Assembly (NCBI GenBank): GCA_024643405.1
Contig: JAHENA010000021.1
Location: forward strand, 1-37,352
Direction: 5' to 3'
Length of the DNA: 37,352 nt
Origin: Flavobacteriales bacterium
Lineage (GTDB): Bacteria; Bacteroidota; Bacteroidia; Flavobacteriales; Flavobacteriaceae
Made by a program: the position numbers and the translations under genes. The notes below the pieces were generated by a model, which was not told the DNA's origin, did no database searches, and worked only from the letters and a program-made list of their open reading frames with translations. Below, piece by piece: positions 11,773-28,928 of this stretch; the first letter of the stretch is position 1; every line of letters begins with the position of its first letter.

Positions 11773-11780
11773 AAAAGAAA

Positions 11781-12308: not shown

Positions 12309-12344
12309 AATATTAATATTTTAAGTTTAACATATTTAGCAACA

Positions 12345-12388: not shown

Positions 12389-12428
12389 TCAACTTGAGTT
12401 GATTTTGAGAAGTCTTTGTTAACAAAAT

Positions 12429-12845: not shown

Positions 12846-12862
12846 TGGTATAATTATTAAAA

Positions 12863-14236: not shown

Positions 14237-14246
14237 TGCTGCAGTT

Positions 14247-15089
14247 TTATGTATGACAAAGCATTTTTATTTCTTTTAGTATTCTCACCTTTCTCGTTTC
14301 CGAAATTCCCAAGTGATCTAAATAAAAAGCATCCCCAATCAATTCTCTGCAGAGCACTACGTCTCTACTTAATAAGAACTGCTTTTCTCTGTTAGTTAAT
14401 AGTGTAGAAACAGTTATTGGATATAAACCCAAACGATCAATTCTATCTTTTAGACCATTATTTTTTGGATAATCCCAACTTAATAAATACAAATTAGCAC
14501 AATTACCATATTGTAACGCATCTTCTGTAAAACGGGTATTGGTAACCACCCATCCAGTTGTAAGTTTAGTGCCATTTTTTGGATTAGAATTCCAATGGGC
14601 TTTGACATCATTGTAGCGTGAATTAATATAAAGCGGGATTTTGACATTACAATTAAGGCCTTGTTCATTATGAAATTTACACTCTACAATTGTAGTTTCA
14701 TTATTTTTATGCGCTAAAACATCTATTTCATGTTTAACACATTGCCCTTGCAAAATTGTATCAACTTCTGTTTTATATCCTGAATATTTTAAGATAGCGC
14801 TTATAAAATTCTCAAAGGGAAAACCTGTTGGTCCTAACTCATAAATTGCCTTTTTTAACTTATATTTTGAAGCCAAATAACTTTTCTTTTTTTTGAGCAT
14901 TGCAAAAGCTCTATTGTAGATTTCTTTTGTTGAAATACCTTGATATAACTCGTCTATTACCGTATTAACAATCAGGTTTACCGTTTGATTATCGGTGCCA
15001 ATTCGTTTTAATGACAGTTTTAATTTGTCTAACGAAAATTTCACCGTTTCACCAGAAGATTTAATAATATCAATTGTATCCATTTCCAT
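14247..15089 (-). CDS. ATP-cone protein fused to a Mrr-like restriction endonuclease fold
   Basis: Residues about 4-88 form an ATP-cone, the allosteric nucleotide-binding module of ribonucleotide reductases (DIIKSSGETVKFSLDKLKLSL, given in part). Residues about 90-210 carry a PD-(D/E)xK nuclease signature: HEIDVLA with Asp123, then IVECKFH with Glu136 and Lys138. The tail (about 225-280) is helical and ends in a possible helix-hairpin-like DNA-contact region. The pair suggests a nuclease controlled by ATP or dATP level. It lies 51 bases downstream of the eRF1-like gene and next to the beta-CASP RNase. Start: two nearby ATGs (15089 and 15083); I kept the first. The architecture is known from genomes, but its function is not established to my knowledge. 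Confidence 0.82.
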   Translation of the reverse strand: MEMDTIDIIKSSGETVKFSLDKLKLSLKRIGTDNQTVNLIVNTVIDELYQGISTKEIYNRAFAMLKKKKSYLASKYKLKKAIYELGPTGFPFENFISAILKYSGYKTEVDTILQGQCVKHEIDVLAHKNNETTIVECKFHNEQGLNCNVKIPLYINSRYNDVKAHWNSNPKNGTKLTTGWVVTNTRFTEDALQYGNCANLYLLSWDYPKNNGLKDRIDRLGLYPITVSTLLTNREKQFLLSRDVVLCRELIGDAFYLDHLGISETRKVRILKEIKMLCHT

Positions 15090-15140
15090 TTTAGAGGGTA
15101 TTAAACTGGTGAAAAAATTGGCAACATCGGGTTTGTGAAA

Positions 15141-15566
15141 CTAAAATCCTTTCACCCGTACAGGAATATTAAAAAATTCTTTAACCCATGCCTTAACCTG
15201 TTTTTTAGTCATACTATCGGTTTTCACAACATCCTTGACTTTTGCTTTTAAATCACTGTAGCTTTCTGTTAATTCTTTATAAAACTTTTCTCCAGTTTCC
15301 GCCGGGCCAAAAATCACTAAGTCCTCTGCATCCTTTATAGCAGACACAATATTTTTAAAATATTTTTTTAACTGCTGTTTTTCGCGTTTCATATATTTAT
15401 TTTCAGCCATTGCATCTTGCGGGCTTCCCTTAAATCCAAGTCCGAAACCGCCAGAAGGGTGAAAATTTTCAACTTCAGATAATATTGTATTAAAACTTAC
15501 TCTTCTATTATTAATATCAACTATATGAGCGTTTTTTTTGTCTAACCATATACCAATTCGTCTCAT
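15141..15566 (-). CDS. Small protein resembling the eRF1/Pelota-like (baeRF) domain
   Basis: The 141 residues begin RRIGIWLDKKNAHIVDI, like the start of bacterial eRF1-like proteins, and later contain DLVIFGPAETGEKFYKEL and KVKDVVKTDSMTKKQVKAWV, which resemble the last beta-alpha repeat of eRF1 domain 3. A glycine-rich HPSGGFGLGFKG loop lies between. Proteins of this type are thought to contact the ribosome, so a part in stalling or hibernation during stress is possible. It sits 65 bases after a universal stress protein gene with no promoter of its own visible, so it probably belongs to the transcript starting at 16498. The family call is moderate. Confidence 0.55.
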   Translation of the reverse strand: MRRIGIWLDKKNAHIVDINNRRVSFNTILSEVENFHPSGGFGLGFKGSPQDAMAENKYMKREKQQLKKYFKNIVSAIKDAEDLVIFGPAETGEKFYKELTESYSDLKAKVKDVVKTDSMTKKQVKAWVKEFFNIPVRVKGF

Positions 15567-15631
15567 CTGTTCTTAATTTTAAATTATTAATTCCTTTAAA
15601 CCGAAAAACTGAAAAATACTTTTATAAAATC

Positions 15632-16486
15632 TTAGTTTCTTAAATCATGCATTACCAACAACGGTACTTTTGAGGCATATCCAATTTCTTTTACCAATGG
15701 TTTAGTTAATATACTTCCAAAAAATGCATGTTTTTTATTTATAAAAGCAACCATATCGCTATCTCTGCTTTCTACAAAACAATTTATTGCAATAAATATG
15801 TCATTATGACTCAGCTCATGGAATGAATAATCAACATTTTCAAAAAACTCTTTTAGCAATTTTTTATTATTCTCTTGTTTTTTATTCAATTTTTCTTCTG
15901 TTTTTACATGTAGAAATTTGATTGAAGCTTTACAAATTTGAGCCAACTCAATTAAATGTTTTAATTCTCTTCTTTTTAAGTGGGTTTTAAAACTTGTTGG
16001 AAAAACTATCTCTTTAGGTAAGTAATTTTTAGCTAATTCTGGAACCACTACAGTCGGGCAATTTCTCACTTTTTCCATAACATCAATGGCAACACTACCA
16101 AACACCGCTTTTATAGATTCTGTCTCCCCTTTACTACCCATAACAATCATATCTATATCCTTTTCCTCTACTACCGTTTGAATGGCTTCAATTGTATTAT
16201 TGAATTTTGAAATGATTTCAAAATGATGTTTAGGATTTTTATCCTTTTCAAGAGTCAACTTATCCAAAATTTTTGCTAAACCATTTTCTGATTTAAGTCT
16301 GGCTGTTTCATAAAGCTCACTGCCAGGTTCAAGGCTTATTAAACTAACAATAGGATTACCAATTGCAGAAAACACGTTTAAAATGTAAAAGTTGCAGAAT
16401 TCATTTTTATACAATTCTTGTGCATAAGTTATTGCGCGCCATGCATTCTTTGAAAAATCTGTGGGTAACAGTATCCTGCGCTTCAT
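15632..16486 (-). CDS. Universal stress protein, two UspA domains (first of the operon 16486-12429)
   Basis: This 284-residue cytoplasmic protein has two tandem UspA folds (about 1-148 and 150-284). The first starts RRILLPTDFSKNAWRAI and contains the nucleotide motif G-2x-G-9x-GS as GSKG...FGS, so it should bind ATP. The second half keeps the strand pattern (EIVFPTSF, LLVMHDL) but not the nucleotide motif. UspA-type proteins promote survival in growth arrest and low oxygen. Translation starts about 12 bases after the inferred transcript start of the FNR-like promoter at 16503-16546. It is one of five such paralogues in the window. Confidence 0.92.
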   Translation of the reverse strand: MKRRILLPTDFSKNAWRAITYAQELYKNEFCNFYILNVFSAIGNPIVSLISLEPGSELYETARLKSENGLAKILDKLTLEKDKNPKHHFEIISKFNNTIEAIQTVVEEKDIDMIVMGSKGETESIKAVFGSVAIDVMEKVRNCPTVVVPELAKNYLPKEIVFPTSFKTHLKRRELKHLIELAQICKASIKFLHVKTEEKLNKKQENNKKLLKEFFENVDYSFHELSHNDIFIAINCFVESRDSDMVAFINKKHAFFGSILTKPLVKEIGYASKVPLLVMHDLRN

Positions 16487-16502
16487 TTTTATCGTTTTAA
16501 TT

Positions 16503-16546
16503 TAAATATAAAATAGTAGGCCTCTTTTAGCAATGATATTAATCAA
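16503..16546 (-). promoter_or_regulatory. FNR-like box plus -7 element for the universal stress protein/RNase operon
   Basis: In gene sense the box TTGAT-TAAT-ATCAT (16546-16533) is followed after 22 bases by TATATTTA (16510-16503). The box begins 2 bases beyond the stop codon of the preceding gene (16548), which shows how tightly the cluster is packed. The inferred start is near 16498. Confidence 0.75.
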
Positions 16547-16547
16547 C

Positions 16548-17378
16548 TCATTCTGGTATCACTAAGAATGGCACAATAGGTTGACGCCCTATCTTTTTAA
16601 TAATAGGTTCTTTTATTATATTTTCAATAAAACTATGCCTATAATTAATCATAGCTAACATATTAATATCTAACTCAGTAATAAAGTCTTTAATTTCAAT
16701 TGTTTTTTTTGCATATTCTGGCATCCAGTGAAAACTATGCTCATAATCAAAAAGATAACTTTTTAGAACCATTAAATTATACTCCTGAAGATGATTAAGT
16801 TTTTCTTCTTCGTTGATATGTACAATTCTAATTTTGGCATTATACATATCTGCTAATTGTTTTAAAGGTTCTAATTCCGCTTTACTAAAGAAGTGATTGA
16901 AATCTGTTGGGAAAGCAATTTCCTTTGGCACTACAAAGTCAAAATCCTCTGGCAAAACTAAAACAGGGCACATACTTATGTTATTAATAAGATGTACCGT
17001 ATTGGTTCCAAACAAAAATTCCTCAGTACCAGTTGCGCCTTTGGTACCCATTATAATTAGATCAATGTCATACTTAATAATGGCTTCGTCCACCGCAATA
17101 TTTAAATCTTTTGAACTTAAAATAATCTCAAATCTATGATTTGAATTAGCATCTGAACTCTCTGCCATTTCTTTCAAATCCAATAATTCTTTTAAAGCAT
17201 GATCATATATAGTATTTTCTAATTTATTTGACAAATTCGTCATGGTTGTCACACCTAAAGCGGTTGAATGTAAGAAGTGAAAGGTGCATACCTCATCTTC
17301 GTAGAGTTTTAAGGCATAAACTATGGCGCTCCAAGAATTATCTGAAAAATCTGTTGGTAATAAAATTCGCTTTTCCAT
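16548..17378 (-). CDS. Universal stress protein, two UspA domains
   Basis: The 276-residue protein has the same two-domain plan as its neighbours. The first domain begins KRILLPTDFSDNSWSAIVYAL and keeps the ATP-binding motif as GTKG...FGT followed by TVHLI. The second domain (from about residue 148, EIAFPTDFNHFF) lacks that motif. It begins 3 bases after the next upstream paralogue ends and is the last gene of the three-gene unit that starts at 19122. It probably forms homo- or hetero-dimers with its paralogues, which is known for the family but not shown here. Confidence 0.92.
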   Translation of the reverse strand: MEKRILLPTDFSDNSWSAIVYALKLYEDEVCTFHFLHSTALGVTTMTNLSNKLENTIYDHALKELLDLKEMAESSDANSNHRFEIILSSKDLNIAVDEAIIKYDIDLIIMGTKGATGTEEFLFGTNTVHLINNISMCPVLVLPEDFDFVVPKEIAFPTDFNHFFSKAELEPLKQLADMYNAKIRIVHINEEEKLNHLQEYNLMVLKSYLFDYEHSFHWMPEYAKKTIEIKDFITELDINMLAMINYRHSFIENIIKEPIIKKIGRQPIVPFLVIPE

Positions 17379-17381
17379 GAT

Positions 17382-18251
17382 TTAAGATTTTTTAATTTTA
17401 GCTGGGATTAGTAAAAAAGGAATATTTAAGTGAAATCCTATTTGGTTTACAGTGTTTTTAAAAAATAAGTTTTCAAAAAATGAATGTTTATTATTAATCA
17501 TTACCAATAAGTTAATTCGAGCCCTTAACTGAAATTCAGAGATGGCTTCAGGAACAGATTCATTAGACACACTATGAAATAGATGTGCCGTTTTCTTAAA
17601 TAATTTTTCAAGTTCCTTTTTGTTTTTTTCTTGTATTTCAGATAATTCATATCCATATGAAACATTTAAAATATTTATTCTAGATATATATAATGAGGTA
17701 ATATCAATTAAAGGCTCCAGTTGTTTTTTGGTAAATTCTATGTCATAATCTGTTGGAAACAATATTTCATGAGGAGTTTCAAATTTGAAATTTTGTGGAA
17801 TCGCAAATACTGCGCATTTGATGCTTTTAAATACATGAACCGTATTGGATCCAAATAAAACTTCTTTGGCTCCTGTAGCACCTTTTGTTCCCATAATGAC
17901 ATAATCTATAGCCTTCTCTTTTACCAATTCTTTAATTTCTGAAATTAAAGTGTTGAAAACAGATATCATTTCCAAACTATGATTTGGGTTCTTAAATTCC
18001 TTATTAATTCTATCCTTAAAATCTTTTAATAATTTTAATGAGGTTTCCCTGATAGGATCTGGCAATCCAAACTGTGTAGGACCACTAAATAGAGCCGGAC
18101 TGCCATATAAATACTCCGTTTGATAAATTACTGGCGTATAAACATTCAATAAATAAAATTTACATTTTTCATTTTTAAATAATTGTAAAGCATATACTAT
18201 GGCGTTCCAAGAATTTTCAGAAAAATCGGTAGGAAGAAGAATCTTTTTCAT
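17382..18251 (-). CDS. Universal stress protein, two UspA domains
   Basis: The 289 residues hold an N-terminal UspA domain beginning KKILLPTDFSENSWNAIVYAL with an intact G-2x-G-9x-GS motif (GTKG...FGS), then a second domain beginning about residue 150 (EILFPTDYDIEF) without it. An aromatic, proline-rich loop (YLYGSPALFSGPTQFGLPDP) enlarges the first domain compared with its paralogues. It is the middle gene of the unit, 16 bases after the first gene. The starting block PTDFSxNSWNAI is almost the same in the paralogues at 16548 and 24047, which points to recent duplication. Confidence 0.92.
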   Translation of the reverse strand: MKKILLPTDFSENSWNAIVYALQLFKNEKCKFYLLNVYTPVIYQTEYLYGSPALFSGPTQFGLPDPIRETSLKLLKDFKDRINKEFKNPNHSLEMISVFNTLISEIKELVKEKAIDYVIMGTKGATGAKEVLFGSNTVHVFKSIKCAVFAIPQNFKFETPHEILFPTDYDIEFTKKQLEPLIDITSLYISRINILNVSYGYELSEIQEKNKKELEKLFKKTAHLFHSVSNESVPEAISEFQLRARINLLVMINNKHSFFENLFFKNTVNQIGFHLNIPFLLIPAKIKKS

Positions 18252-18267
18252 GATGTTGTTTTATAAT

Positions 18268-19122
18268 TTATAATTCGTCACGTTTCATGTTTTGTAATGC
18301 TAACAACGGAATGTTCAGATTTAAGCTTAATTCGTCTATTGTAGACTGGAAAATTATATTTTCTAAAAAGGAATGTCTCGTATTAACCATGACCAACATG
18401 TCAATATTATTTTCTCTAATATATTTATAGATAGTATCAAGAATGTCTTTGCTTTTAGCCACTTTAAAATTGATGGGATTTTTACATAATGTTTCTTTTA
18501 TAAAATCTCTGTTATCTTCTTGCCTCATAGAGAGTTTATCTATTTTAGAAATATATAGCATATCAATAACAGCTCTATATGGTGAGGCCATTTCACAAAG
18601 TAATTTTAGTTCTCTGCGTTTAAATGGAATCATATAATTTGTTGGAAAAAGAATATGCCGTGGCTGCGTATATTTATAATTTTCTGGAATGGCCAAAACA
18701 GGACATTGCACATATTTTAAAACCTGAAGCGTATGACTGCCAAATGTTAAGTTTTTATCGTTAGTCTTTCCACGGGTTCCCATAGCGACTAGATCTATAT
18801 TTTCGTCATCAACAATTTTATCTGCTTCATCCAAAAGGAGACTATTAGAAGAAATAAGGTGATATTTATGTTTTGGATTTGGTGAATACTTAGTGACCTT
18901 TTTTAAGAGTTCTTGTAATTGTTCATCAGATCTCTTTATTACTGTTTCTTTAGTATGTGCTAATGTTTCTCGAGTTAATGTATGCTCTTCTGCATAAATT
19001 TCATCCTGATAAGCATGCATAAAATAAAACTCACTAACTTCATATTTAAATAAATCAACCCCGTAATGAATGGCATTCATTGCATTATTAGAAAAATCAG
19101 TGGGAATCAAAATTTTTCTCAT
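18268..19122 (-). CDS. Universal stress protein, two UspA domains (first of the operon 19122-16548)
   Basis: The protein has 284 residues if started at the ATG at 19120-19122 (MRKILIPTDFSNNAMNAI). An earlier in-frame ATG at 19152 would add ten residues, but it lies upstream of the inferred transcript start near 19135, because the -7 element TAATTTTA occupies 19140-19147; the shorter start also fits the paralogues. The first domain has the ATP motif GTRG...FGS; the second does not. The leader is about 13 bases. Confidence 0.92.
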   Translation of the reverse strand: MRKILIPTDFSNNAMNAIHYGVDLFKYEVSEFYFMHAYQDEIYAEEHTLTRETLAHTKETVIKRSDEQLQELLKKVTKYSPNPKHKYHLISSNSLLLDEADKIVDDENIDLVAMGTRGKTNDKNLTFGSHTLQVLKYVQCPVLAIPENYKYTQPRHILFPTNYMIPFKRRELKLLCEMASPYRAVIDMLYISKIDKLSMRQEDNRDFIKETLCKNPINFKVAKSKDILDTIYKYIRENNIDMLVMVNTRHSFLENIIFQSTIDELSLNLNIPLLALQNMKRDEL

Positions 19123-19139
19123 GGTTACTTTATTTTGAT

Positions 19140-19183
19140 TAAAATTAAACACATTATTAGCCTGTTACAATGATATTTATCAA
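19140..19183 (-). promoter_or_regulatory. FNR-like box plus -7 element for the three-gene universal stress operon
   Basis: In gene sense the box TTGAT-AAAT-ATCAT (19183-19170) is followed after 22 bases by TAATTTTA (19147-19140). The box lies 10 bases beyond the stop codon of the ribonucleotide reductase gene. It decides the start of the gene downstream. Confidence 0.78.
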
Positions 19184-19193
19184 GCTGAAATGA

Positions 19194-20912
19194 TTAACAG
19201 GCACTGCTATTATTTAAACTACATTTTTGGAGTACTTGATTTGTTTTACTACCATATCTATAAATGGTTATACCCTTTAATTTATATTTCCATGCACTCA
19301 TAAAAATGTTAGAAACATCTTCACTTGTTTTCTCTTCTGATAGATTTATAGTTTTAGAAACGGCATTATCTGTATACTTTTGAAAGGCGCTTTGATGCAA
19401 CAAATGATAGTGCCATGGAATATCCAAACTTGTTTTAAAAAGGTTCTTAATATTATCGGGAATGATATCAACATTCTTAATGCTTCCTGTTTTTAAAACC
19501 ATGTTTTTAACATCCGGGGTCCATAGATTTAATTGCCTTAATTTCTCAATAAAAAGTGCGTTGATTTCAGTTTGTATTTCATTTCCTAAAATTCCCACGC
19601 GGTTATATGCCAATGCGAATAAAGGTTCAATAGAATATGAAGTATTTGCAATTACAGAAATAGTTCCTGTGGGCGCAATACTATTGCAAGTGGCATTCCT
19701 CAATTTATGTTTTGGTGAAAAAATACTGTTTGGCCAATTTGGAAAAACACCTCTTTCATTAGCCAATTTCTCAGAGGCTTTATAACTTTCATTTTTAATA
19801 AACTTCATTGTTTGTTCGGCTAATACAACTGCTTCGTCAGATGCATATGGTATTCCTAAAAGGATAAGTAATTCTGCCCAACCCATAACCCCTAATCCAA
19901 TTTTTCTATTGGCCATTGTTATCCTTTTAATCTGAGGTAATAAGTAATGATTTAAAGTAATAATGTTGTCTAAAAACCGAATACCTAAATGGACTGTCTT
20001 TTCTAATTTACCCCAATCAATTGTAACTTTTTCTCCCAGTTTCACTATCATTTTTGAAAGATTAACGGAGCCCAAATTGCAACTTTCATAATTTAATAAC
20101 GGTACTTCGCCACAAGGGTTAGTACTTTCAATGCGTCCAATTTTAGGAGTTGGGTTTCCAGTGTTTATTGTATCTATAAAAATTAAACCAGGATCGCCGG
20201 TTTGCCAGGCTTCATTAACAATTAATTGCCATATTTCTTTCGCTTTTAAAACCTTAGTTATTTTATTGTTACGTGGGTTTATGAGATTCCAATTTAAATC
20301 CTGTTCCACAGCCTTCATAAAATCATCAGAGATTCCCACAGAAATATTAAAATTTTCAATGGCATCCTTACTTGATTTAGAGCTAATAAATGCCTCAATA
20401 TCAGGATGATTAATATTTAATATGCCCATATTGGCTCCTCTTCGTTTCCCACCTTGTTTCACATATTCAGTGGCAGCATCATATACTTTTATAAAAGCCA
20501 CCGGTCCTGAAGAGGTACCACTGGCAGGACTTACCAAATCATTTTTAGGCCGTAACTTTGAAAAATTAAAGCCTGTCCCGCCTCCACTTTGATGAATTAG
20601 AGCCGCATATTTTAAAGTATTAAATATTTCCTTTAAACTATCCTCAACCGGTAGAACAAAACAAGCGCTGAGTTGTCCTTGTTTGCATGCCGCATTCATT
20701 AATGTTGGAGAATTTGGTAAAAAAAGAAAACCGCTAAGAATATTATAAAACTGAAGTTCATAAAAATACTTTTGATGTTCTTCACAGCTTGCAACAAATT
20801 TTGCCACACGCTTAAAAAGTTGTTGAGGAGTTTCAATGACATGGCCTTTATTATCTTTTAAAAGATAACGTTCATTTAGAATTTGTCTGGCATTATTTGA
20901 TAAGGATAACAT
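19194..20912 (-). CDS. nrdJ: Adenosylcobalamin-dependent (class II) ribonucleotide reductase
   Basis: This 572-residue enzyme reduces ribonucleotides to deoxyribonucleotides without oxygen, using a cobalamin-generated thiyl radical. The active site is seen as NPCGE (265-269, thiyl Cys267), the redox pair Cys84 (LSACFVLP) and Cys278 (YESCNLGSVNLSK, 11 residues after Cys267), and the phosphate-binding APTGTIS. The C-terminal KCSLNNSSAC supplies a reducing cysteine pair. It is shorter than many class II enzymes and has no N-terminal ATP-cone, so overall activity control by dATP is not expected. It shares one FNR-like box with the divergent DUF2267 operon, which fits a role under low oxygen. Confidence 0.92.
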   Translation of the reverse strand: MLSLSNNARQILNERYLLKDNKGHVIETPQQLFKRVAKFVASCEEHQKYFYELQFYNILSGFLFLPNSPTLMNAACKQGQLSACFVLPVEDSLKEIFNTLKYAALIHQSGGGTGFNFSKLRPKNDLVSPASGTSSGPVAFIKVYDAATEYVKQGGKRRGANMGILNINHPDIEAFISSKSSKDAIENFNISVGISDDFMKAVEQDLNWNLINPRNNKITKVLKAKEIWQLIVNEAWQTGDPGLIFIDTINTGNPTPKIGRIESTNPCGEVPLLNYESCNLGSVNLSKMIVKLGEKVTIDWGKLEKTVHLGIRFLDNIITLNHYLLPQIKRITMANRKIGLGVMGWAELLILLGIPYASDEAVVLAEQTMKFIKNESYKASEKLANERGVFPNWPNSIFSPKHKLRNATCNSIAPTGTISVIANTSYSIEPLFALAYNRVGILGNEIQTEINALFIEKLRQLNLWTPDVKNMVLKTGSIKNVDIIPDNIKNLFKTSLDIPWHYHLLHQSAFQKYTDNAVSKTINLSEEKTSEDVSNIFMSAWKYKLKGITIYRYGSKTNQVLQKCSLNNSSAC

Positions 20913-20931
20913 AATTTAACATGCTATATAT

Positions 20932-20975
20932 CAAATATATATAGAGATTATTTTTACTGCACTGATCAATATCAT
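20932..20975 (-). promoter_or_regulatory. nrdJ promoter with the shared FNR-like box
   Basis: Read leftward, the box ATGAT-ATTG-ATCAG (20975-20962) is followed after 22 bases by a full TATATTTG element (20939-20932). The inferred start is near 20927, 15 bases before the nrdJ ATG. The same box serves the rightward promoter. Confidence 0.78.
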
Positions 20976-21005
20976 TTGGAAAAACCAATGGAGTTACCAA
21001 TTTTA
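20962..21005 (+). promoter_or_regulatory. DUF2267 operon promoter with the shared FNR-like box
   Basis: Read rightward, the box CTGAT-CAAT-ATCAT (20962-20975) is followed after 22 bases by CAATTTTA (20998-21005), one base off TAnnTTTA. A TTTG lies directly after the box. The inferred start is near 21010, 20 bases before the ATG at 21030. Confidence 0.7.
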
Positions 21006-21029
21006 TGTATTAACTAAAAACAACCTAAA

Positions 21030-21476
21030 ATGGCACTTAATTTCACACAATTTGCAAAAGAGGCAAATTCATTTTTAAAAAATTATACCAAAGAAATGAA
21101 TTTAGACAACAATACAGATAAAGCTGGACGCATACTATCTTCTATTCTACATGCATTAAGAGATGTTATTTCAACTGAAGAATCTTTAAATTTAATTTCA
21201 CAATTCCCTATGTTTTTAAAAGCTGTCTATGTCAATGGATGGACTATACAAAAAAAAGAAAAAATAAAAACTATGCCGGAATTTATTGATTTGGTAAGAA
21301 AATATGATGGAGTTACTTCAGTACACGACTTTGAATCAGACGAACTTGCTGAAAATTATATTGATACAACATTTATATTATTAAGAAAATACATCTCCTT
21401 GGGAGAATTGGAAGATATCAGAACTATCCTTCCAAAAAATTTAAAATCAATGGTATACCACAATATTATGTTTTAA
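21030..21476 (+). CDS. DUF2267 family protein
   Basis: The 148 residues match the DUF2267 pattern: an all-helical protein starting NFTQFAKEANSFLKNYT and containing DKAGRILSSILHALRDVIS, then ISQFPMFLKAVYVNGW. No catalytic motif is known for the family. In other bacteria it often accompanies universal stress proteins, phosphoribosyltransferase-like proteins and hydrolases, the same company as here. It is the first gene of a three-gene plus-strand operon with gaps of 9 and 5 bases. Confidence 0.85.
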   Translation: MALNFTQFAKEANSFLKNYTKEMNLDNNTDKAGRILSSILHALRDVISTEESLNLISQFPMFLKAVYVNGWTIQKKEKIKTMPEFIDLVRKYDGVTSVHDFESDELAENYIDTTFILLRKYISLGELEDIRTILPKNLKSMVYHNIMF

Positions 21477-21485
21477 TAAAAATTT

Positions 21486-22136
21486 ATGGAAACTAAAGTC
21501 AATTATAAGGAAATTGAAATCCCCATAGAAAAAACTCATTTGAACGGCATTTTACGCTTGAAAAAAGAAAGCAAAGGCATTATCCTATTTTCACATGGCA
21601 GCGGAAGTAGCCGATTTAGTAGTAGAAATAATTATGTCGCAAATTTTTTACTGGAAAAAGGATATTCAAGTTTACTATTTGATCTTCTTACCGTCCAAGA
21701 AGACACGATATATGAAAACCGTTTTGACATTGACCTGCTTTCAGAAAGGCTATTAAAAGCTACCATGTGGATTACAAATAATAAAGAAACAAAACATTTA
21801 AACATAGGTTATTTTGGTGCAAGTACGGGTGCCGCTTCGGCATTAAAAGCCGCAGCTGCATTAGGTAAAAATATCAAAGCCATTGTATCCAGAGGTGGCA
21901 GACCAGATCTTGCCTTCTCTGCCTTAAAAAAAATAGAAACGCCCACACTTTTGATTGTTGGAAGAAATGACGAAGTTGTAATAGAGTTAAATAAAAAAGC
22001 AAAAAGTAAAATATCTGGGATTTGTGAATTGAAAATAATAGAAGGGGCTTCCCATTTATTTGAAGAGCCAGGTAAACTAGATATAGTCGCTCAAGAAACC
22101 GTTCATTGGTTTGATGTTTATTTGAATAAAAAATAA
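21486..22136 (+). CDS. Alpha/beta hydrolase (dienelactone hydrolase-like)
   Basis: The 216-residue protein has an alpha/beta hydrolase fold. An oxyanion-type HGSGSSRFSSRNNYVA segment lies at about 37-52, the nucleophile elbow is GASTG (Ser113), the acid is Asp162 in VGRNDEVV, and the histidine is His190 in GASHLFEEPG. All three catalytic residues are thus present. The substrate is not known. It has no signal peptide. It is the middle gene of the DUF2267-hydrolase-phosphoribosyltransferase operon, a gene set that recurs in stress islands of unrelated bacteria. Confidence 0.87.
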   Translation: METKVNYKEIEIPIEKTHLNGILRLKKESKGIILFSHGSGSSRFSSRNNYVANFLLEKGYSSLLFDLLTVQEDTIYENRFDIDLLSERLLKATMWITNNKETKHLNIGYFGASTGAASALKAAAALGKNIKAIVSRGGRPDLAFSALKKIETPTLLIVGRNDEVVIELNKKAKSKISGICELKIIEGASHLFEEPGKLDIVAQETVHWFDVYLNKK

Positions 22137-22141
22137 TAATT

Positions 22142-22789
22142 ATGTTTAAAAATAGATCTGAAGCTGGATTATTACTTGCTGAAAAATTAAAAAACTACAG
22201 CAAAGTTAAGAATGTAATTGTCGTTACAATACCAAGAGGTGGTTTGCCAATAGGTTATACTATTGCAAAACAATTAGAGGTGCCTTTAGAAATTGTGCTT
22301 TCAAAAAAAATTGGGCATCCAGCAAATAAGGAATATGCCATTGGTGCTGTCACCCTTAATGACCGCATTTTAGGTATTAATTTAGATATTATTTCTGAAG
22401 ATTACTTAATGGAAGAAACAAGTAAGATTAGGCAGCTTTTAAAACTACGTCACGACAGGTATTATGGCACCAACAAAGCGCGTAGTTTGCAAAATAAAAT
22501 TGTCATATTGGTTGATGATGGAGTAGCCACAGGCCACACTATCATCTCCTGTATAAAACTCATTGAAAAGCAAAATCCTTTCAAAATAGTAGTGGCTTTG
22601 CCAGTTGGCCCTCCTTCGGTTATCAAAAAAATAGAAGACATGTCTTGCGTTAATCAAACCATCTGTTTGTTAACGCCTTCTGATTTTTATGCCGTTGGAC
22701 AATTTTACGAAGAATTCAACCAAGTTGATGATAATGAAGTTATTAAACTTTTACAAAAAGCTAATAACAATTTTGTAGAAACCGTTTGA
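22142..22789 (+). CDS. Phosphoribosyltransferase-family protein
   Basis: The 215-residue protein begins with the family's N-terminal PRGGLPIGYTIAKQL region and has the PRPP-binding loop VILVDDGVATGHTI at 121-134, with both acidic residues. A pyrophosphate-loop stretch (LSKKIGHPANKEYAIGAV) is also present. Proteins of this subgroup are annotated as phosphoribosyltransferases, but their base substrate is not established. It ends the operon. The next hairpin with a T-run on this strand is the one at 22927-22956, so the transcript may carry a long 3' tail. Confidence 0.87.
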   Translation: MFKNRSEAGLLLAEKLKNYSKVKNVIVVTIPRGGLPIGYTIAKQLEVPLEIVLSKKIGHPANKEYAIGAVTLNDRILGINLDIISEDYLMEETSKIRQLLKLRHDRYYGTNKARSLQNKIVILVDDGVATGHTIISCIKLIEKQNPFKIVVALPVGPPSVIKKIEDMSCVNQTICLLTPSDFYAVGQFYEEFNQVDDNEVIKLLQKANNNFVETV

Positions 22790-22921
22790 ATAAAATAAGC
22801 TGAAAGCATAGCACAGCCAAAAAGACCCACTAAAACTGCACAAATTTTATATAGTGGTTTCTAATTCTCAAAATATTAAAGGTTTTGACTACCACTATTA
22901 ATAAAATTTAAAAAAATCGCT

Positions 22922-22956
22922 AAAAAAAAACGGGAAAGTCATTTCTTTCCCGTTTT
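22922..22956 (-). terminator. Strong intrinsic terminator, best in the leftward direction
   Basis: A 12-base stem (AAAACGGGAAAG at 22927-22938 and CTTTCCCGTTTT at 22945-22956) with a 6-base loop. Read leftward it is followed by an uninterrupted run of nine T including the end of the stem region; read rightward only four T follow. It should mainly end a leftward transcript from 23591, and may also end the rightward phosphoribosyltransferase transcript. Confidence 0.85.
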
Positions 22957-23026
22957 CTCAGTGTATAAAAATCTGCTTTAAGTAAATAAAACAAGTATTA
23001 CAACTGATTAATAGCCTGCATTAAAA

Positions 23027-23053
23027 GAAACAGGAAGCAAAACTTCCTGTTTC
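23027..23053. repeat. Hairpin repeat copy 1
   Basis: GAAACAGGAAG, loop CAAAA, then CTTCCTGTTTC: an 11-bp perfect stem. In the leftward RNA this is the last of three copies. The stem sequence is identical in all three. Confidence 0.9.
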
Positions 23054-23207
23054 CTGTTAAAACATTTGATTTTATTTATTAACCTTTTCTAATCATTAAA
23101 ACTGTTTTTATCTCTAAATACAGATTAAATCTTCAGCTAAAAAATAGCTTCAAACGCTTCTAAACTAGATTAAGCATTTTTACAATGAAATCTCTAGTCG
23201 ATTTTAA

Positions 23208-23235
23208 GAAACAGGAAGCCAAAACTTCCTGTTTC
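23208..23235. repeat. Hairpin repeat copy 2
   Basis: Same 11-bp stem with loop CCAAAA, 181 bases from copy 1. The bases on its left and right resemble those of copies 1 and 3 in part, for example an AATAGCTTCAAACGCTT stretch matching AATAGCTTTAAACACTT before copy 3. Confidence 0.9.
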
Positions 23236-23387
23236 CTCAAAGCATTTAATGTCATCATTATAACTTTTGGTTTTCTGCGACATACTCTCATTTCTAAGAA
23301 ACACATCTGGGTTTTCAGGTTACACAATAGCTTTAAACACTTTGTTCTGGCCTCATCATTTTTCAACAACAAAACCTATTTTTTAAA

Positions 23388-23415
23388 GAAACAGGAAGCC
23401 GAAACTTCCTGTTTC
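23388..23415. repeat. Hairpin repeat copy 3
   Basis: Same 11-bp stem with loop CCGAAA, 180 bases from copy 2. In the leftward RNA this is the first copy. Confidence 0.9.
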
Positions 23416-23595
23416 AATTTAGAGTTCAATTATATTATACAATTTTATATTTGCCATTTAATCTCCCATTTATTATGAAGAATACTATTCAATTTAACTA
23501 ACCAAGAACGATATATGCAAATACATTTAACTAGACAATAGATTTGAACTCATATTTGTTTTGTAACTAAGTGAAAGAACGTATTATTTATTTTG

Positions 23596-23639
23596 CTAAG
23601 ATAGCATACAGCTTTTGAATTTGCATTGATAGATATCAA
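23596..23639 (-). promoter_or_regulatory. FNR-like box plus -7 element pointing into the gene-less repeat region
   Basis: In leftward sense the box TTGAT-ATCT-ATCAA (23639-23626) has the perfect symmetric outer arms of the E. coli FNR consensus. After 22 bases comes TATCTTAG (23603-23596), identical to the hsp20 element. The inferred start is near 23591. In the rightward direction the matching position reads GTACCACA, so the promoter is one-way. Confidence 0.7.
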
Positions 23640-23653
23640 TTTGGAAAAATAAT

Positions 23654-24040
23654 TTATACAGGTACCACATCATATACAATATTTAATAAAAACAATCCAA
23701 TAAAAAATAGTAGCATATATATAACCTGAACAAATTTTATGTTAATAAGTTCTAAACTTGGTATAGTTCTATTTGGAAAAATAAATAGTGCCAACCCAAT
23801 AAAAAGTGAAACCCAGCCAATTAAAGTGATTAAAATTTTCCAATTTAGTTCCCATACATTATGAAATAAAATATTGACTAATCCCACAATTATAGCAATA
23901 AAAGCAGTGAGTATTAAGAATTTTTCATCATTTAAATCTGTAAAAATTTGTTTGATTCGTTTGGGGTTAAAACTGAGTATTAAAAAGAAAATTATTAGAT
24001 ACCATCCCCAAAATTTTGCTAAAAAAATAGAATTATCCAT
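23654..24040 (-). CDS. Small four-helix membrane protein
   Basis: I do not recognise this family. The 128 residues contain four strongly hydrophobic segments at about 8-25, 40-60, 67-88 and 104-125, joined by short charged loops (NPKRIKQIFTDLNDEK is the largest). There is no signal for cleavage and no cysteine. The gene starts 6 bases after the universal stress protein at 24047 ends, so they form a two-gene operon under an FNR-like promoter. Confidence 0.75.
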   Translation of the reverse strand: MDNSIFLAKFWGWYLIIFFLILSFNPKRIKQIFTDLNDEKFLILTAFIAIIVGLVNILFHNVWELNWKILITLIGWVSLFIGLALFIFPNRTIPSLELINIKFVQVIYMLLFFIGLFLLNIVYDVVPV

Positions 24041-24046
24041 AGGTAT

Positions 24047-24895
24047 TTAATTTTTTTCGTGTAATACAAAAAATGGTATTTCTAAATGATAACTTAAGTC
24101 TTCAACGTTAGAATGAAATAAGATCTGTTGAAAATAGTTTAAGTTTTTGGCTACCATAAAAATCATGTTAATATCTCTGCTATCGATAAAACATTGTATC
24201 CCTTCTTCAATTTTTTTGTTTGTTAAAAAATGGAAACTATGTTCTTGCTTCACAAAATAATCTTCTATTATTTTTTTATTAATCTCCTGATCTTTATTTA
24301 ATTCTGATTTTGCTTTGTTAATATGAACAATACGAATAGATGCCTTAAACTGTTTTAAAATCTGTGATATAAACTGTAATATTTCTGAGTCAAAGGAAGA
24401 TAAAAAATCTGTTGGTAAAGCAATTTCTTTAATTTTGTTAAAATCAGCATTTTCTGGAACAGCCAGAAGCGTACAATTAATTTTTTTTATAACATCATAT
24501 GTATTTGTGCCTATAAGATACTGATTTAAACCTGAGGCGCCTTTGGTTCCCATGACAATACAATCTATTTCCTTTTCTTCTACAAAATTCTTGATAGATT
24601 CTATAAAAAAATTATAATCAGTATGTGTATAGAAATGGTGTTTTTTATGCTCTGGAAATGTTTTAGATATCTGCTTTAAAACTTTTCGCAGTCTCATTTT
24701 AGCCGGTTTTGTATATACCTCTTCAATTACATTCTCTGTTGCTGTATAAGGAATATCTCCCGCAACCATATAACTTAATCTATCAACATGAAGCAAATGA
24801 AAGTTGCATGCTGATGTTTCAAAAAAACGAATAGCATATTTGATAGCATTCCAAGAGTTTTCTGAAAAATCTGTTGGTAATAATATATTTTTCAT
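24047..24895 (-). CDS. Universal stress protein, two UspA domains (fifth paralogue)
   Basis: The 282-residue protein begins KNILLPTDFSENSWNAIKYAI and carries the nucleotide motif GTKG...IGT in its first domain; the second domain (from about 155, EIALPTDFLSSF) lacks it. It closely resembles the four paralogues at 15632-19122 but lies in its own two-gene operon with a membrane protein, about 3 kb beyond nrdJ. The FNR-like promoter at 24917-24960 gives a leader of about 17 bases. Membrane partnership is only suggested by gene order. Confidence 0.92.
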   Translation of the reverse strand: MKNILLPTDFSENSWNAIKYAIRFFETSACNFHLLHVDRLSYMVAGDIPYTATENVIEEVYTKPAKMRLRKVLKQISKTFPEHKKHHFYTHTDYNFFIESIKNFVEEKEIDCIVMGTKGASGLNQYLIGTNTYDVIKKINCTLLAVPENADFNKIKEIALPTDFLSSFDSEILQFISQILKQFKASIRIVHINKAKSELNKDQEINKKIIEDYFVKQEHSFHFLTNKKIEEGIQCFIDSRDINMIFMVAKNLNYFQQILFHSNVEDLSYHLEIPFFVLHEKN

Positions 24896-24916
24896 AGAAT
24901 TAAACCTTTAATTACT

Positions 24917-24960
24917 TAAAATTAGATTTATGTTATGGGCTATGAAATGATATTACTCAT
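24917..24960 (-). promoter_or_regulatory. FNR-like box plus -7 element for the fifth universal stress gene
   Basis: In gene sense the box ATGAG-TAAT-ATCAT (24960-24947) has one good and one weaker half-site. After 22 bases comes TAATTTTA (24924-24917), identical to the element at 19140-19147. The inferred start is near 24912. Confidence 0.7.
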
Positions 24961-25022
24961 TTTGAAGTGTTTAGAACCAGTTTATTATTAATGACTTTGC
25001 GTGAAGTTAAAAATGGATAATT

Positions 25023-26078
25023 TTATTTAATTTTTCTTAATTTTTCTAAATCCACCACTTTAAAATTTTTACCATCCGCCTCAACAATGCCTTCATTTTT
25101 TAAAATGGTAAGCGCTCTTACAAAAGTTTCTGAAGCAATTCCCGCAACACTTGCAAGATCACTTCTTGAAATTTTTATTGGATCACCTGGTTTATGATTG
25201 ATTTTTTCGGCAAATTTTAAGATGGTTGTAGCCGTTTTTTTGTTGACTGAACTATATGCCATTTCTAAAAGCTGCTCTTTTAAAGTAGATAGATTATCAG
25301 CTAATAATTCAATTAATTCTAATACAACTTTATGATTATTGTCAAGAATATTCATAAACTCGATTATTGAAATGCCATATAACTTAGTAGCTTGAATAGC
25401 TACTGCCGTTTCTTTATGCGGCGCGTTATGGGTAAATGAGGTATACCCAAACAAATCATCTTCCTTAAATAGCGCTGTCACTAATTCTTTGCCTTGTTCA
25501 TCGATTTGATAGCATTTTACTGCGCCCTTTTTAATTAGGTAAATATAATTTGTGTGATCTCCTTCTCTATAAATTATTTCATCTTTAATGAATTCAAAAA
25601 GGATTCCATTATCCTCAAAAAAATTTTTTAAATCATTCAATGATTTTATCTCATCCTCAATTACTTCTTGAATATAATTGGTACTTTTTGTTTCTGTAAT
25701 CTGTGTTTTATATGATCTTTCAATACGACTTTCGACAACACTAATGAGATCTTCATCAGTAAATGGTTTGGTAATATAATCGTCCGCTCCTAAATTCATG
25801 CCCTTTCTAATATCTTGATTTTCACTCTTTACAGATAAAAAAACGAAAGGTATATTTTTACTAGCTTTCTTTTTAGAAAGAATATTAAAAACACCATAGC
25901 CATCAAGTTCAGGCATCATAATATCACATATAATGAGGTCTGGCTCATATTTTTCTGCCAATGCTACACCTTTTATACCATTTGAAGCCGTGATAACCTT
26001 ATATTTAGATAACTCCAAAATTTCAGCTGTGTTCTCTCTTAAAGCAAGGTCGTCTTCAATAACTAAAACTGTTTTCAT
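25023..26078 (-). CDS. Response regulator with REC, cNMP-binding-like and Crp-type HTH domains
   Basis: This 351-residue protein is a receiver domain fused to a CRP/FNR module. REC (about 1-122): acidic pair Asp9/Asp10, phospho-acceptor Asp52 in CDIMMPELDGYG, Ser82, Lys104 in YITKPF. The cyclic-nucleotide-binding-like fold is at about 158-265 (GDEIIY-type start, REGDHTNYIYLIKKGAV). The HTH is at about 303-332: SRSDLASVAGIASETFVRAL, with Glu317 and Arg321 at the positions of the base-reading Glu and Arg of FNR and CRP, and Val320 between. It has only two scattered cysteines (51, 189), so no FNR-type iron-sulfur cluster. Its start overlaps the kinase stop as ATGA. It is the best candidate to bind the FNR-like boxes in this window. 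Confidence 0.9.
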   Translation of the reverse strand: MKTVLVIEDDLALRENTAEILELSKYKVITASNGIKGVALAEKYEPDLIICDIMMPELDGYGVFNILSKKKASKNIPFVFLSVKSENQDIRKGMNLGADDYITKPFTDEDLISVVESRIERSYKTQITETKSTNYIQEVIEDEIKSLNDLKNFFEDNGILFEFIKDEIIYREGDHTNYIYLIKKGAVKCYQIDEQGKELVTALFKEDDLFGYTSFTHNAPHKETAVAIQATKLYGISIIEFMNILDNNHKVVLELIELLADNLSTLKEQLLEMAYSSVNKKTATTILKFAEKINHKPGDPIKISRSDLASVAGIASETFVRALTILKNEGIVEADGKNFKVVDLEKLRKIK

Positions 26079-27955
26079 TGTTTTGCAGTATTTGGTATAG
26101 ATACCGTAAACGTTGTACCTAAATGCTCTTCACTTTCAAAACTTATTATACCATCTAAATTTTCTAGATGATTTTTAACAATATTTAAACCTATACCTGT
26201 TCCTTCTGTATTAATAACATTTTCAGATCGAAAATAACGATCAAAAATATTTTTTTGATCCTTTAACGGAATACCAATGCCATTATCAATAATTTTAATG
26301 GTTGTTAAATCATCATTTTGTTCTATATCAATGTGAATCGTTGAATTTTCAGGAGAATATTTAATGGCATTGTGAATTAAATGAGTTAATATTAATTCAA
26401 TAACTTGTTCATCTTGATATAATGACAAATCATCAATGTTTTCTCTGTATTTAATTTGCTGACCTTCTTTTAAAAGTAATTTAGCGTCAAAAATAATGTC
26501 ATTAACTATTTCACTTATTTTAAATTCACTAAACTGGTAACTTAAATTCCCTGTCTCAAATTTATCGATAGATAAAAAACTATTTAAAATATTATTTAAT
26601 AAATGAACTTTATCTGTTATTGTATTTATATGTTTATTTCTATTTGACTGCTGTTCTGTTAATTGGTACTTTCCTAACAATAAACTAGAAGTTAAAATGG
26701 CACTTAAAGGTGTTTTAAATTCGTGTGACAGTAAGGACAAAAATCTAGTTTTTAATTCATTGATTTCAATCTCCTTTCTAAGTGCTTCTTTAAGTTGTTT
26801 AGTCCGTTCAGTAACCTTATTTTCAAGTTTCGTAGTATAATTTTTGCGTTCTGTTATATCTAAAATGATAGCAACAAAAACTTCTCGTTCTCCTAATTTT
26901 GAGAGTTGCAAATGCACCTCGACCGGATAAGTAGTACCATCTTTTCTATATTGAACCGATTCTACTTCTAATTTTTGTACGTTTTTTTTAAGTAAGATGT
27001 CAACAATACCCCTAAACTCAGCTTCATCTCGGTAAGGTAATATATCTAATGGAGTCATTTTAACTAACTCATCCATGGTGTAACCAAGATTTTTTTGAGC
27101 ACCATAATTAACCTTCACAAACTTTAATGTTTTGGCATCAAAAACATGAATTTCATTTAATGAATCATCAAAAATGGTTGATAGATGCTGGCGTTCTTCT
27201 TCTTCTCTTTTCCTGTCGGTAATATCTTCTTGAATGCCTATAAAATTTGTAACTAAACCATCCGCATCTGTTATTGGCATAACATACAAATCATTCCAAA
27301 ATAATGTCCCGTCTTTTTTGTAATTACGTAAAACAACGCGGCAACTCTCCCCTTTTTTAATGGCTGATTTTAATTTTTTAAGAGATTCTTGATCTTTATC
27401 GGTACCATACAAGATCCTGCTATTATGGTTAAGAATTTCATTAGATTTATAGCCAGTTATGTTTTGAAATGCAGTGTTGACATAAATCACTGGGTTATCA
27501 TGCTTTAAGGCATCTGTAATAATAATACCATTCGTTGCAGACTCCAAGGCTCTGCTCTTTATCATTAAATTTTTTTCTATTTCAAGTTGATGTGAAATAT
27601 CTTTAATTAATGCCATCACATAAGGCTTGTCAAAAACAGTAAACGGAACTAATTCTAAGTCCAATTCCAAGATGTCACCGTTTTTATGTAACCCATAAAT
27701 ATCTTTGGAATCACTCATTTTTTTTCTAGTACCCTTTTTCATAAACTCTTTAAAATGGGTAGCATGACTTTTGTGATAATTAGATGGAAGAAGAATAAGT
27801 AAGTTTTTACCGACCAACTCTATTTTAGAGTAACCAAAGATATCCTCAGCCGCAGCATTTATTTCAACAATATTTTGATGATTGTCAACAACAACCACAG
27901 CTTCAGAAATTGCTTCTAGAAGAAGACTAGATATTTGATCATTTTGCCTAAACAT
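26075..27955 (-). CDS. Multi-PAS sensor histidine kinase (FixL-like PAS, LOV-like PAS)
   Basis: The 626-residue protein has no membrane segment and is probably cytoplasmic. PAS1 (about 8-122) has the FixL-like stretch LLPSNYHKSH, with His64 aligning with the haem-binding histidine of FixL; the FixL distal arginine position is Lys84. PAS2 (about 132-248) looks like a LOV domain: NSRILYGTDKD, NYKKDGTLFWNDL, FIGIQEDIT, but Ser179 stands where the photoactive cysteine would be. PAS3 (about 256-370) has QYRKDGTTYPVEV. HisKA has LLSHEFKTPLSAI (His411); the ATPase has HNAIKYSPENS, DNGIGIP and GTGIGLNIV. The adjacent overlapping gene is its probable partner regulator. I see no FNR-like box upstream. 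Confidence 0.92.
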   Translation of the reverse strand: MFRQNDQISSLLLEAISEAVVVVDNHQNIVEINAAAEDIFGYSKIELVGKNLLILLPSNYHKSHATHFKEFMKKGTRKKMSDSKDIYGLHKNGDILELDLELVPFTVFDKPYVMALIKDISHQLEIEKNLMIKSRALESATNGIIITDALKHDNPVIYVNTAFQNITGYKSNEILNHNSRILYGTDKDQESLKKLKSAIKKGESCRVVLRNYKKDGTLFWNDLYVMPITDADGLVTNFIGIQEDITDRKREEEERQHLSTIFDDSLNEIHVFDAKTLKFVKVNYGAQKNLGYTMDELVKMTPLDILPYRDEAEFRGIVDILLKKNVQKLEVESVQYRKDGTTYPVEVHLQLSKLGEREVFVAIILDITERKNYTTKLENKVTERTKQLKEALRKEIEINELKTRFLSLLSHEFKTPLSAILTSSLLLGKYQLTEQQSNRNKHINTITDKVHLLNNILNSFLSIDKFETGNLSYQFSEFKISEIVNDIIFDAKLLLKEGQQIKYRENIDDLSLYQDEQVIELILTHLIHNAIKYSPENSTIHIDIEQNDDLTTIKIIDNGIGIPLKDQKNIFDRYFRSENVINTEGTGIGLNIVKNHLENLDGIISFESEEHLGTTFTVSIPNTAKQ

Positions 27956-28052
27956 TATATTCTTTGTTTAATCACAGGATGAATAATGTCTTTCTCGGCT
28001 GGCTCTTTAAATTTACGAAATATTTTACAAAAAACGTAAATTTTTATCCATA

Positions 28053-28096
28053 TTGATATATATCATAACAACTTAATCAACAAGAAATTAAATTTG
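28053..28096 (+). promoter_or_regulatory. FNR-like box plus -7 element for the TerB-like/DUF302/thioredoxin operon
   Basis: The box TTGAT-ATAT-ATCAT (28053-28066) is followed after 22 bases by a full TAAATTTG (28089-28096). The inferred start is near 28101, so a GTG start at 28096 is excluded. Leftward, toward the kinase gene, the equivalent position reads TTGTAAAA and is not a promoter. Confidence 0.78.
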
Positions 28097-28116
28097 TGCT
28101 TATTAGATTCATTGTC

Positions 28117-28530
28117 ATGCGCCATAATAAGAAAATGACCCTTAAATTTTATCAAAACCTTGGTAAACTTTTTTATGCCATTGCGGCAGTAGATGATCAT
28201 GTAAAAAAAGTTGAGTTTGATAAGCTTAAAGAGTTAGTGAAAAAAAAATGGTTAGAACTTGATCCCATTGAAGATATTTACAGCACTGATGCGGCCTATC
28301 AAATTGAAATTGTTTTTGATTGGTTATATAATCAAGAAAATTTAAACACTGAAGCGTGTTTTGATGCCTTTGTGAATTATAAAAACGAACAAAAACATTT
28401 GTTTTCCAAACCAGTTAAACAATTAATTTTAAAAACAGCTGGTGCAATTGCTGCGGCCTTTTCGGGTATCAACAAATCAGAATTAATTTTTCTTGCTAAA
28501 TTAGACTTGGAATTAAAAAACATATCGTGA
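28117..28530 (+). CDS. TerB-like helical protein
   Basis: The protein has 137 residues from the ATG at 28117; a second ATG at 28135 (MTLKFYQNLGKLFYAIAAVDDHV) is also possible, while a GTG at 28096 would lie upstream of the inferred transcript start. The segment FYQNLGKLFYAIAAVDDHVKKVE resembles the acidic first repeat of TerB/DjlA-type domains (FYAIAAVDD), and the rest is helical. TerB-like proteins occur in stress and envelope-related systems; the exact role is unknown. The gene is first in an operon, with its TGA overlapping the next ATG as TGATG. Confidence 0.6.
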   Translation: MRHNKKMTLKFYQNLGKLFYAIAAVDDHVKKVEFDKLKELVKKKWLELDPIEDIYSTDAAYQIEIVFDWLYNQENLNTEACFDAFVNYKNEQKHLFSKPVKQLILKTAGAIAAAFSGINKSELIFLAKLDLELKNIS

Positions 28531-28928
28531 TGACTTATTATTTCAACACCATCGTTTCAGGAAATTTTGAAACAGTTATAGAAAACGTTACCGAATTATT
28601 AAAAAAAGAAGGATTTGGCATACTCACACAAATTGACATTCAGCAGACTTTAAAAAATAAATTGGATGTCCATTTTAAAAAGTATAAAATACTAGGTGCT
28701 TGCAATCCGCCTTTTGCATATGAAGCATTACAACAGGAAGATAAAATTGGCACCATGCTTCCATGCAACATTATTGTTCAGGAATTGGAGCCAAACAAAA
28801 TAGAAGTGGCTGCAATTAACCCCATGGTTTCAATGCAAGCTGTAAAAAATGAAAAACTCGGAAATATTGCTCAACAGGTGAGTCAAAAATTAGAAAACGT
28901 TATAAGTAATCTTAAAAATGAAAAGTAG
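28530..28928 (+). CDS. DUF302 domain protein
   Basis: The 132 residues match DUF302: [29 protein letters not shown] (given in part), [16 protein letters not shown] and [22 protein letters not shown]. Members are small alpha-beta proteins, often found next to redox or sulfur genes. The conserved region includes Cys66-like and Cys87-like residues (ACNPP, LPCN) in the usual places. I start it at the ATG at 28530 that overlaps the upstream stop. Its end overlaps the thioredoxin start by 11 bases, so translation is likely coupled. Function is not established for the family. Confidence 0.88.

Follow-up and report, generated by a model that had tools for sequence, protein, structure and literature searches.

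The window, a stretch of 37,352 nt from Flavobacteriales contig JAHENA010000021.1, contains a gap between two convergent genes that end at 22789 (plus strand) and 23654 (minus strand). The initial annotation had described this gap as a gene-less leftward transcription unit with a regulon box, a -7 element, three hairpins and a strong terminator, and we found all of these in the window sequence. Read along the minus strand, the box is followed by the -7 element, three copies of a stable hairpin (P5) and a 12-bp hairpin with nine T. The features of the locus and of the genes upstream are given below, where R1 is a covariance model that we built from an alignment of the structured units and the unit scores are from cmsearch.

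22922..22956, minus strand: intrinsic terminator, a 12-bp stem (22927-22956) into nine T, read from the sequence
22928..22999, minus strand: tail 3' of the array, weak R1 match (22.2 bits, E 0.0037)
23027..23053, minus strand: P5 hairpin of unit 3, exact
23028..23199, minus strand: structured unit 3 (R1 97.6 bits, E 1.9e-21; in the seed)
23208..23235, minus strand: P5 hairpin of unit 2, exact
23209..23383, minus strand: structured unit 2 (R1 141.2 bits, E 5.1e-32; in the seed)
23388..23415, minus strand: P5 hairpin of unit 1, loop UUCG, exact
23389..23587, minus strand: structured unit 1, diverged type (R1 52.2 bits, E 2e-10; outside the seed)
23596..23603, minus strand: -7 element, TATCTTAG
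23626..23639, minus strand: FNR/CRP-type box, TTGATATCTATCAA, reading TTGATAGATATCAA in the window
23654..24040, minus strand: gene for a conserved 128-aa hydrophobic protein, upstream of the array
24047..24895, minus strand: universal stress protein (Usp) gene (Pfam Usp, E 2.2e-23)
25023..26078, minus strand: response regulator with receiver, cNMP-binding and Crp-type HTH domains, putative activator
26075..27955, minus strand: PAS-domain sensor histidine kinase, putative sensor

The single open reading frame of at least 80 aa in the gap encodes 97 aa on the plus strand (23185-23478), antisense to the array. We discarded it because the frame contains stops in the relatives L003, L004 and L006; the match in L005 is piecemeal. 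The three P5 hairpins are spaced 180-181 nt apart and have the stem GAAACAGGAAG/CTTCCTGTTTC, and the half-site GAAACAGGAAG occurs in six copies in the window, compared with 0.03 expected. The predicted fold of the 681-nt RNA had a z score of -6.1, and none of 20 shuffled sequences was as stable. A consensus terminator scan of the window reported no terminator, though the 12-bp stem and nine T are readable in the sequence. The tail at 22928..22999 overlaps this terminator and is perhaps a decayed fourth unit.

Alignment of the segments between the hairpins identified a common unit of about 175 nt with five helices, and the sequence leading up to the first hairpin turned out to be such a unit as well. 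The three equal hairpins of the initial annotation are present, exactly, at three sites, but each is the 3' end of a larger unit. By comparison, the unit has P1 as its apical hairpin, P2/P3 as a long closing stem, P4 as an inner hairpin (loop mostly GNRA) and P5 as the stable 3' hairpin (loop often UNCG).

Searching bacterial and archaeal genomes for the exact P5 stem, we retrieved 74 stretches, 71 of them from Bacteroidota and mostly from Flavobacteriaceae (Lutibacter, Winogradskyella, Algibacter). Among the three stretches from outside the Bacteroidota (L015, L024 and L077), two had no match to the unit and L015 had the hairpin only. The exact P5 pattern was absent from the viral contigs scanned. 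Arrays with a period of about 180 nt were common, and 1 to 7 units were detected per array in a first set of 76 loci, 21 of which showed one detected unit only, some loci being cut.

Because the P5-stem scan selects for P5, we also searched whole genomes with R1. This search was run with strict filters, so the genome counts are lower bounds: at E 1e-5, R1 matched at least 59 of 397 Flavobacteriaceae genomes and at least 48 of 237 genera, with 338 of the 397 genomes giving no match. At E 1e-3 it matched 12 of 60 relatives, and in a class-wide draw one genome of 295 matched, which was the window's own. That genome has one array locus, by DNA and by model, with R1 matches on contig C49 only. We fetched 60 loci, of which R1 re-found 42; the 18 that default filters missed were placed by the coordinates of the whole-genome search, counted in the tally of neighbouring genes in all 60, and left out of the 30-locus promoter, 92-unit loop and 46-match covariation tests. 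Thirty of the 42 re-found loci, from 30 genomes, lack an exact P5, and one of these (L173) coincides with L006, a first-set locus that belongs to the R1 seed. Array sequence is common to the first set and 17 of the 60 fetched loci, and identical matches come from the pairs L059/L004 and L060/L005, so the neighbourhood, looser-promoter and terminator counts below are not all independent.

To the 23 pairs that RNAalifold proposed for 33 diverse units, 14 of them with two-sided changes, we added others by hand, giving a fold of 48 pairs in five helices. Across the 33 units, 86.3% of the cells of this fold were paired, and 161 two-sided changes were counted, compared with 58.4 in shuffled alignments and 45-61 when the fold was slid. 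Stems covary among the arrays (for example, AAACAGGAAG and AAGCAGGAGG). P1 to P4 keep their pairing as their sequence changes. The initial annotation had pointed to covariation in relatives as a check on the RNA, and in loci chosen without P5 the base pairs do covary: 46 matches from 29 loci were 87.5% paired, with 506 two-sided changes, compared with 157.7 after shuffling, and all five helices were supported. This alignment was fitted to R1, with 45 of the 46 matches outside the seed and one opposite-strand row (L144, plus strand) included; from it RNAalifold proposed 37 pairs, 36 with two-sided changes. Since the exact P5 stem served to find most loci, the conservation of P5 is overstated, yet among 55 units whose loci have no exact P5 it was still the best-conserved helix (0.79, compared with 0.49-0.68). 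Because P5 is palindromic, the model also gives spurious matches on the opposite strand. For each locus we kept only the strand with the best match, which removed 38 of 130 rows and left 92 units, in which we found a GNRA loop in 44 (P1) and 58 (P4) and a UNCG loop in 33 (P5). On comparative grounds, the covariation and the tetraloop pattern belong to an RNA and not to a DNA palindrome.

Units also differ by their place in the array. We built a tree from 52 full-length units belonging to 20 hand-picked loci of the 76. Seven first units grouped together across genera (100/100), and a second cross-genus group of 18 units (89/89, not starred) included 16 that stand last in their array. The deep forks of the tree are weak, and the last units L069 unit 3, L070 unit 4 and L079 unit 3 fall outside the last-unit group. 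In L004, which belongs to the window's genus, two unit types alternate. Grouping by place suggests that the units are, at least partly, paralogues that differentiated long ago rather than recently homogenised repeats, and that unit types tend to keep their array position across genera.

The array and hsp20 (box core at 12376) have the same -7 element, as the initial annotation had claimed, and it also stands at the same spacing in both. Transcription would start near 23590. Because the centre of the box lies 29 nt before the -7 element, it falls near -41.5, a class II activator position; the geometry can be read directly in the sequence, and from it we infer activation. The box is the sole exact TTGATN4ATCAA in the window, which taken alone could be due to chance (25 of 100 shuffles hold at least one). 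The core TGATN4ATCA, however, occurs nine times, compared with 1.5 expected, and none of 100 shuffles reached nine. Scanning the window for the box together with the -7 element gave 16 matches, comprising 12 less than 100 nt from a gene start, that of the array and three unexplained. The sibling promoters of the initial annotation are thus present, but they number about 12 by this rule and not 13.

Box and -7 element stood at exactly 35 nt in 19 of the 30 loci chosen without P5 (18 of 29 without L173), and each of 20 other spacings (25 to 45 nt) was found in none or one of the same loci. Markov resampling over 200 rounds gave a mean of 0.085 and a maximum of 2. Eleven of the 30 loci have no such promoter, and some of these, being weak matches, may be false. 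With all 60 fetched loci included, 45 had a promoter with the 35-nt geometry. This stricter test superseded a looser rule (spacing 32-37, four of five in the -7 element) that we had applied to the 69 of 76 first-set arrays with enough upstream sequence. Under the looser rule 66 of the 69 arrays matched, 64 at exactly 35, with a maximum of 8 in 50 resamplings; 24 of 69 also matched on the reverse complement, because the box is palindromic and the rule is loose. In the Lutibacter arrays L013, L032 and L065 the box is doubled at a distance of 22 nt (two helical turns), with the nearer box at the usual place.

Sense terminators were found in 122 of 130 arrays, compared with 39 on the opposite strand and 6 after shuffling, in a count where the sense stretch was 40 nt longer than the opposite one and at least 17 of the 130 arrays are repeats. 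The last P5 is itself the terminator in 57 of the 130. A narrower scan, covering only the sequence beyond the last P5, gave 45 of 130 in sense, 28 on the opposite strand and 3 after shuffling. In the 9 nt after P5 the mean number of T was 2.8 for internal hairpins (n=134) and 5.1 for the last (n=108). Because internal P5 hairpins have weak U-tracts, the units of an array are most likely transcribed through as one RNA.

The 128-aa gene is the commonest gene directly upstream of the array, standing there on the same strand in 52 of the 76 first-set loci; its product in the window (23654-24040) had no Pfam or NCBIfam match. These loci, mostly of 8 kb or less, also contain Usp (61 loci), the Crp-type response regulator (44) and the PAS kinase (34). 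The 60 fetched loci, 17 of which repeat first-set arrays, contain the regulator in 38 (34 upstream on the same strand), the kinase in 36, Usp in 39 and the 128-aa protein in 30; 22 of them have no regulator gene within the stretch covered. Of 61 array-positive genomes, 59 encode an orthologue of the regulator (E 1e-60 or better), as do 19 of the 60 array-negative ones (Fisher P 3e-15), where array-negative means no match at E 1e-5 with strict filters and the set comprises the lowest-numbered such genomes, less G012, G013, G021 and G031 (weak matches) and including G004 (a weaker R1 match) and G005 (a hairpin fragment). The window's genome encodes a second Crp-type response regulator (G000:C123:19224-20276), 62% identical to the product of 25023-26078.

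By comparison an array RNA gene is well supported: covariation, the conserved promoter, terminators and synteny argue strongly for what the initial annotation had proposed, a gene of about 670 nt for a leftward non-coding RNA whose promoter is of the same type as those of its neighbours. Box type, geometry, synteny and co-occurrence further suggest low-oxygen induction by the neighbouring two-component system, and an FNR-type protein other than the kinase-regulator pair could act at the box. Because the array so often lies beside a stress regulator, it is probably an RNA part of a survival programme. The surrounding island (10350-28928) contains five Usp genes, Hsp20, a class II ribonucleotide reductase, a phosphoribosyltransferase, a hydrolase, DUF2267 and DUF302. 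This gene content resembles that of a DosR-type dormancy regulon, with which the island shares Usp, Hsp20-type, nrdZ-type ribonucleotide reductase and phosphoribosyltransferase genes. The DosR regulator is LuxR-type, unlike the Crp-type regulator here.

We compared the array with known RNA families. Rfam release 15 gave no match in the window at the gathering cut-off, and none in the arrays of 45 fetched loci, where tRNA and Flavo-1 alone matched, outside the arrays. Permissive thresholds brought up no credible family either: the best match there, to L20_leader on the tail and last P5 (window 22916-23057; L155:7333-7467), scored 26-30 bits compared with a cut-off of 58.7 (E 0.0095 and 0.0009), at least 28 bits short, and was taken for chance. 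Flavo-1 (RF01705) lies at L045:843-931 and L073:215-303, in the same loci as two arrays and separate from them, probably by chance. Flavo-1 and other Bacteroidetes motifs are presented as non-coding RNA candidates from comparative genomics in a table of Weinberg et al. 2010 (PMC2864571). A transcriptome study of Flavobacterium psychrophilum lists 85 newly described RNAs (PMC9723704). These Rfp RNAs are, like the array RNA, independent and often structured, and come from the same bacterial family, a comparison made by text only; in that text the word 'tandem' is used twice, for LRR proteins and in a reference, and not for an RNA (PMC9723704). We found no description of the array RNA in the literature searched, with subscription papers, preprints and supplements lying beyond that search. 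The array looks like a previously undescribed non-coding RNA family, probably belonging to an oxygen-type regulon and unusual in its ordered series of several domains.

Comparable systems exist in other bacteria. FnrS of enterobacteria is a small RNA activated by FNR at a TTGAT-N4-ATCAA box under anaerobiosis, and is short, single-unit and Hfq-dependent. The array resembles it in having an FNR-type box near -41.5, an activating position judging by sequence, and differs in that its hosts lack a detected Hfq: in 30 array-positive genomes examined (of 61) we found neither Hfq nor CsrA, while among 14 known genomes the control detected Hfq in 5 and CsrA in 3, the latter including E. coli. The likeness to CsrB and CsrC is in repeated stem-loops within one transcript, here three units (1 to 7 elsewhere) on what is probably one RNA. 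However, the array units are five-helix, position-specific domains and not simple stem-loops; AGGA lies in the P5 stem and another AGG in the adjoining linker, and the consensus loops are UNCG-like or GNRA. Read as a CsrA sponge, the CsrB-type analogy of the initial annotation is therefore unlikely, with no CsrA found in the 30 genomes, GGA not in the consensus loop and units that differ by position. DrrS (MTS1338) of mycobacteria is reported to be DosR-regulated and matured from a longer precursor, and the mature RNA ends near nucleotide 108-109 with no obvious canonical intrinsic terminator (PMC5360333). The array differs from DrrS in having several 175-nt units and a terminator, and the two are likened by description and not by sequence.

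We give about an even chance to the reading that the array is a non-coding RNA of a low-oxygen or dormancy-type regulon that acts through its folded units, most likely as a protein-binding platform. Action by fold through a bound protein is suggested by the retention of base pairing and tetraloops despite sequence drift, and by the failure to find Hfq or CsrA in any of the 30 array-positive genomes examined. In such a mechanism, probably when oxygen or redox conditions become limiting, the promoter would be switched on through the box near -41.5 by the PAS kinase together with the Crp-type regulator. RNA polymerase would then produce an RNA of about 670 nt, passing the internal P5 hairpins with their weak U-tracts and ending at the final terminator. 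The RNA would work in trans by its folded domains, as neither message nor leader, and most likely as a modular platform to which a protein or ribonucleoprotein of the low-oxygen or dormancy programme binds; P5 would protect the units or mark their boundaries. A more specific form of this proposal, which we consider rather doubtful, is a new class of modular scaffold RNA, induced by oxygen or redox state, whose ordered, non-identical and independently folding five-helix domains, their stems capped by GNRA and UNCG loops, would each hold a partner according to position, building a multi-component particle in dormant low-oxygen Flavobacteriaceae.

A regulatory RNA that acts by base pairing is a serious though on balance improbable alternative. 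Tandem units, or monomers cut from them, would pair with mRNAs under low oxygen, either repressing or protecting them, and each unit type would have separate targets. Different target sets would predict unit types that hold their place across genera, as these tend to do, and oxygen-controlled small RNAs exist, for example DrrS, reported to be DosR-regulated (PMC5360333). However, Hfq was not found in any of the 30 array-positive genomes examined, and conservation is mainly of the paired shape, with no long conserved single-stranded stretch common to all units visible by eye. We find it unlikely that the RNA is instead a protein sponge, or a ribosome or polymerase hibernation factor, in which equivalent domains titrate one abundant partner in dormancy. 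The 1 to 7 detected units per array in the 76 loci and the stress-type neighbourhood would suit such a role, by analogy with CsrB, but the units are not interchangeable in the tree and 21 of the 76 loci (some of them cut) show one detected unit; a version with CsrA as the partner fails, since none of the 30 genomes examined yielded CsrA.

Control in cis, with the array as a tandem leader of the downstream Usp gene or as a 3' region of the upstream 128-aa gene, appears very unlikely. The 128-aa gene is a frequent same-strand neighbour upstream, and the nearest downstream gene lies on the same strand, and is often Usp, in 49 of the 66 loci showing such a gene (72 loci counted, after L055, L059, L060 and L066 were dropped as same-genome repeats). 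In the other 17 of 66 that gene is convergent. A cis leader or tandem riboswitch would have a downstream gene in sense and no terminator between; the window has a convergent gene and a strong terminator. Against the leader reading also stand the sense terminators of 122 of 130 arrays, the array's own promoter, and the separate box promoter in the gap for 27 of 47 same-strand downstream genes. We give almost no credence to a DNA repeat that is not a gene, whether a REP-like element, a terminator cluster or the remnant of a mobile element. P5 is palindromic and its copies are tandem, but covariation over five helices, together with synteny, largely refutes this explanation, and the promoter geometry is fixed. 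REP and REPIN sequences are dispersed in many copies per genome, whereas the window's genome has one array locus, and the viral contigs scanned lack the exact P5 pattern.

The arrays would represent a widespread non-coding RNA family without an Rfam 15 match in a large bacterial family. To our knowledge, post-transcriptional regulation in Flavobacteriaceae without Hfq and CsrA is poorly understood. By analogy with DrrS in mycobacteria, the array suggests an RNA arm beside Usp/Hsp20/RNR-type regulons in Bacteroidota. Because the probable sensor, the regulator, the promoter geometry and the end signals lie in one locus, the trigger and the partner are directly testable.

Elsewhere in the island, a box at 16534 precedes a possible operon (12429-16545) encoding Usp, a 141-aa protein, an ATP-cone/Mrr-type protein, a beta-CASP/RMMBL metallo-hydrolase of RNA type and a 138-aa protein. 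If co-regulated, such an RNase would be a candidate for binding the array RNA as a partner or for processing it.
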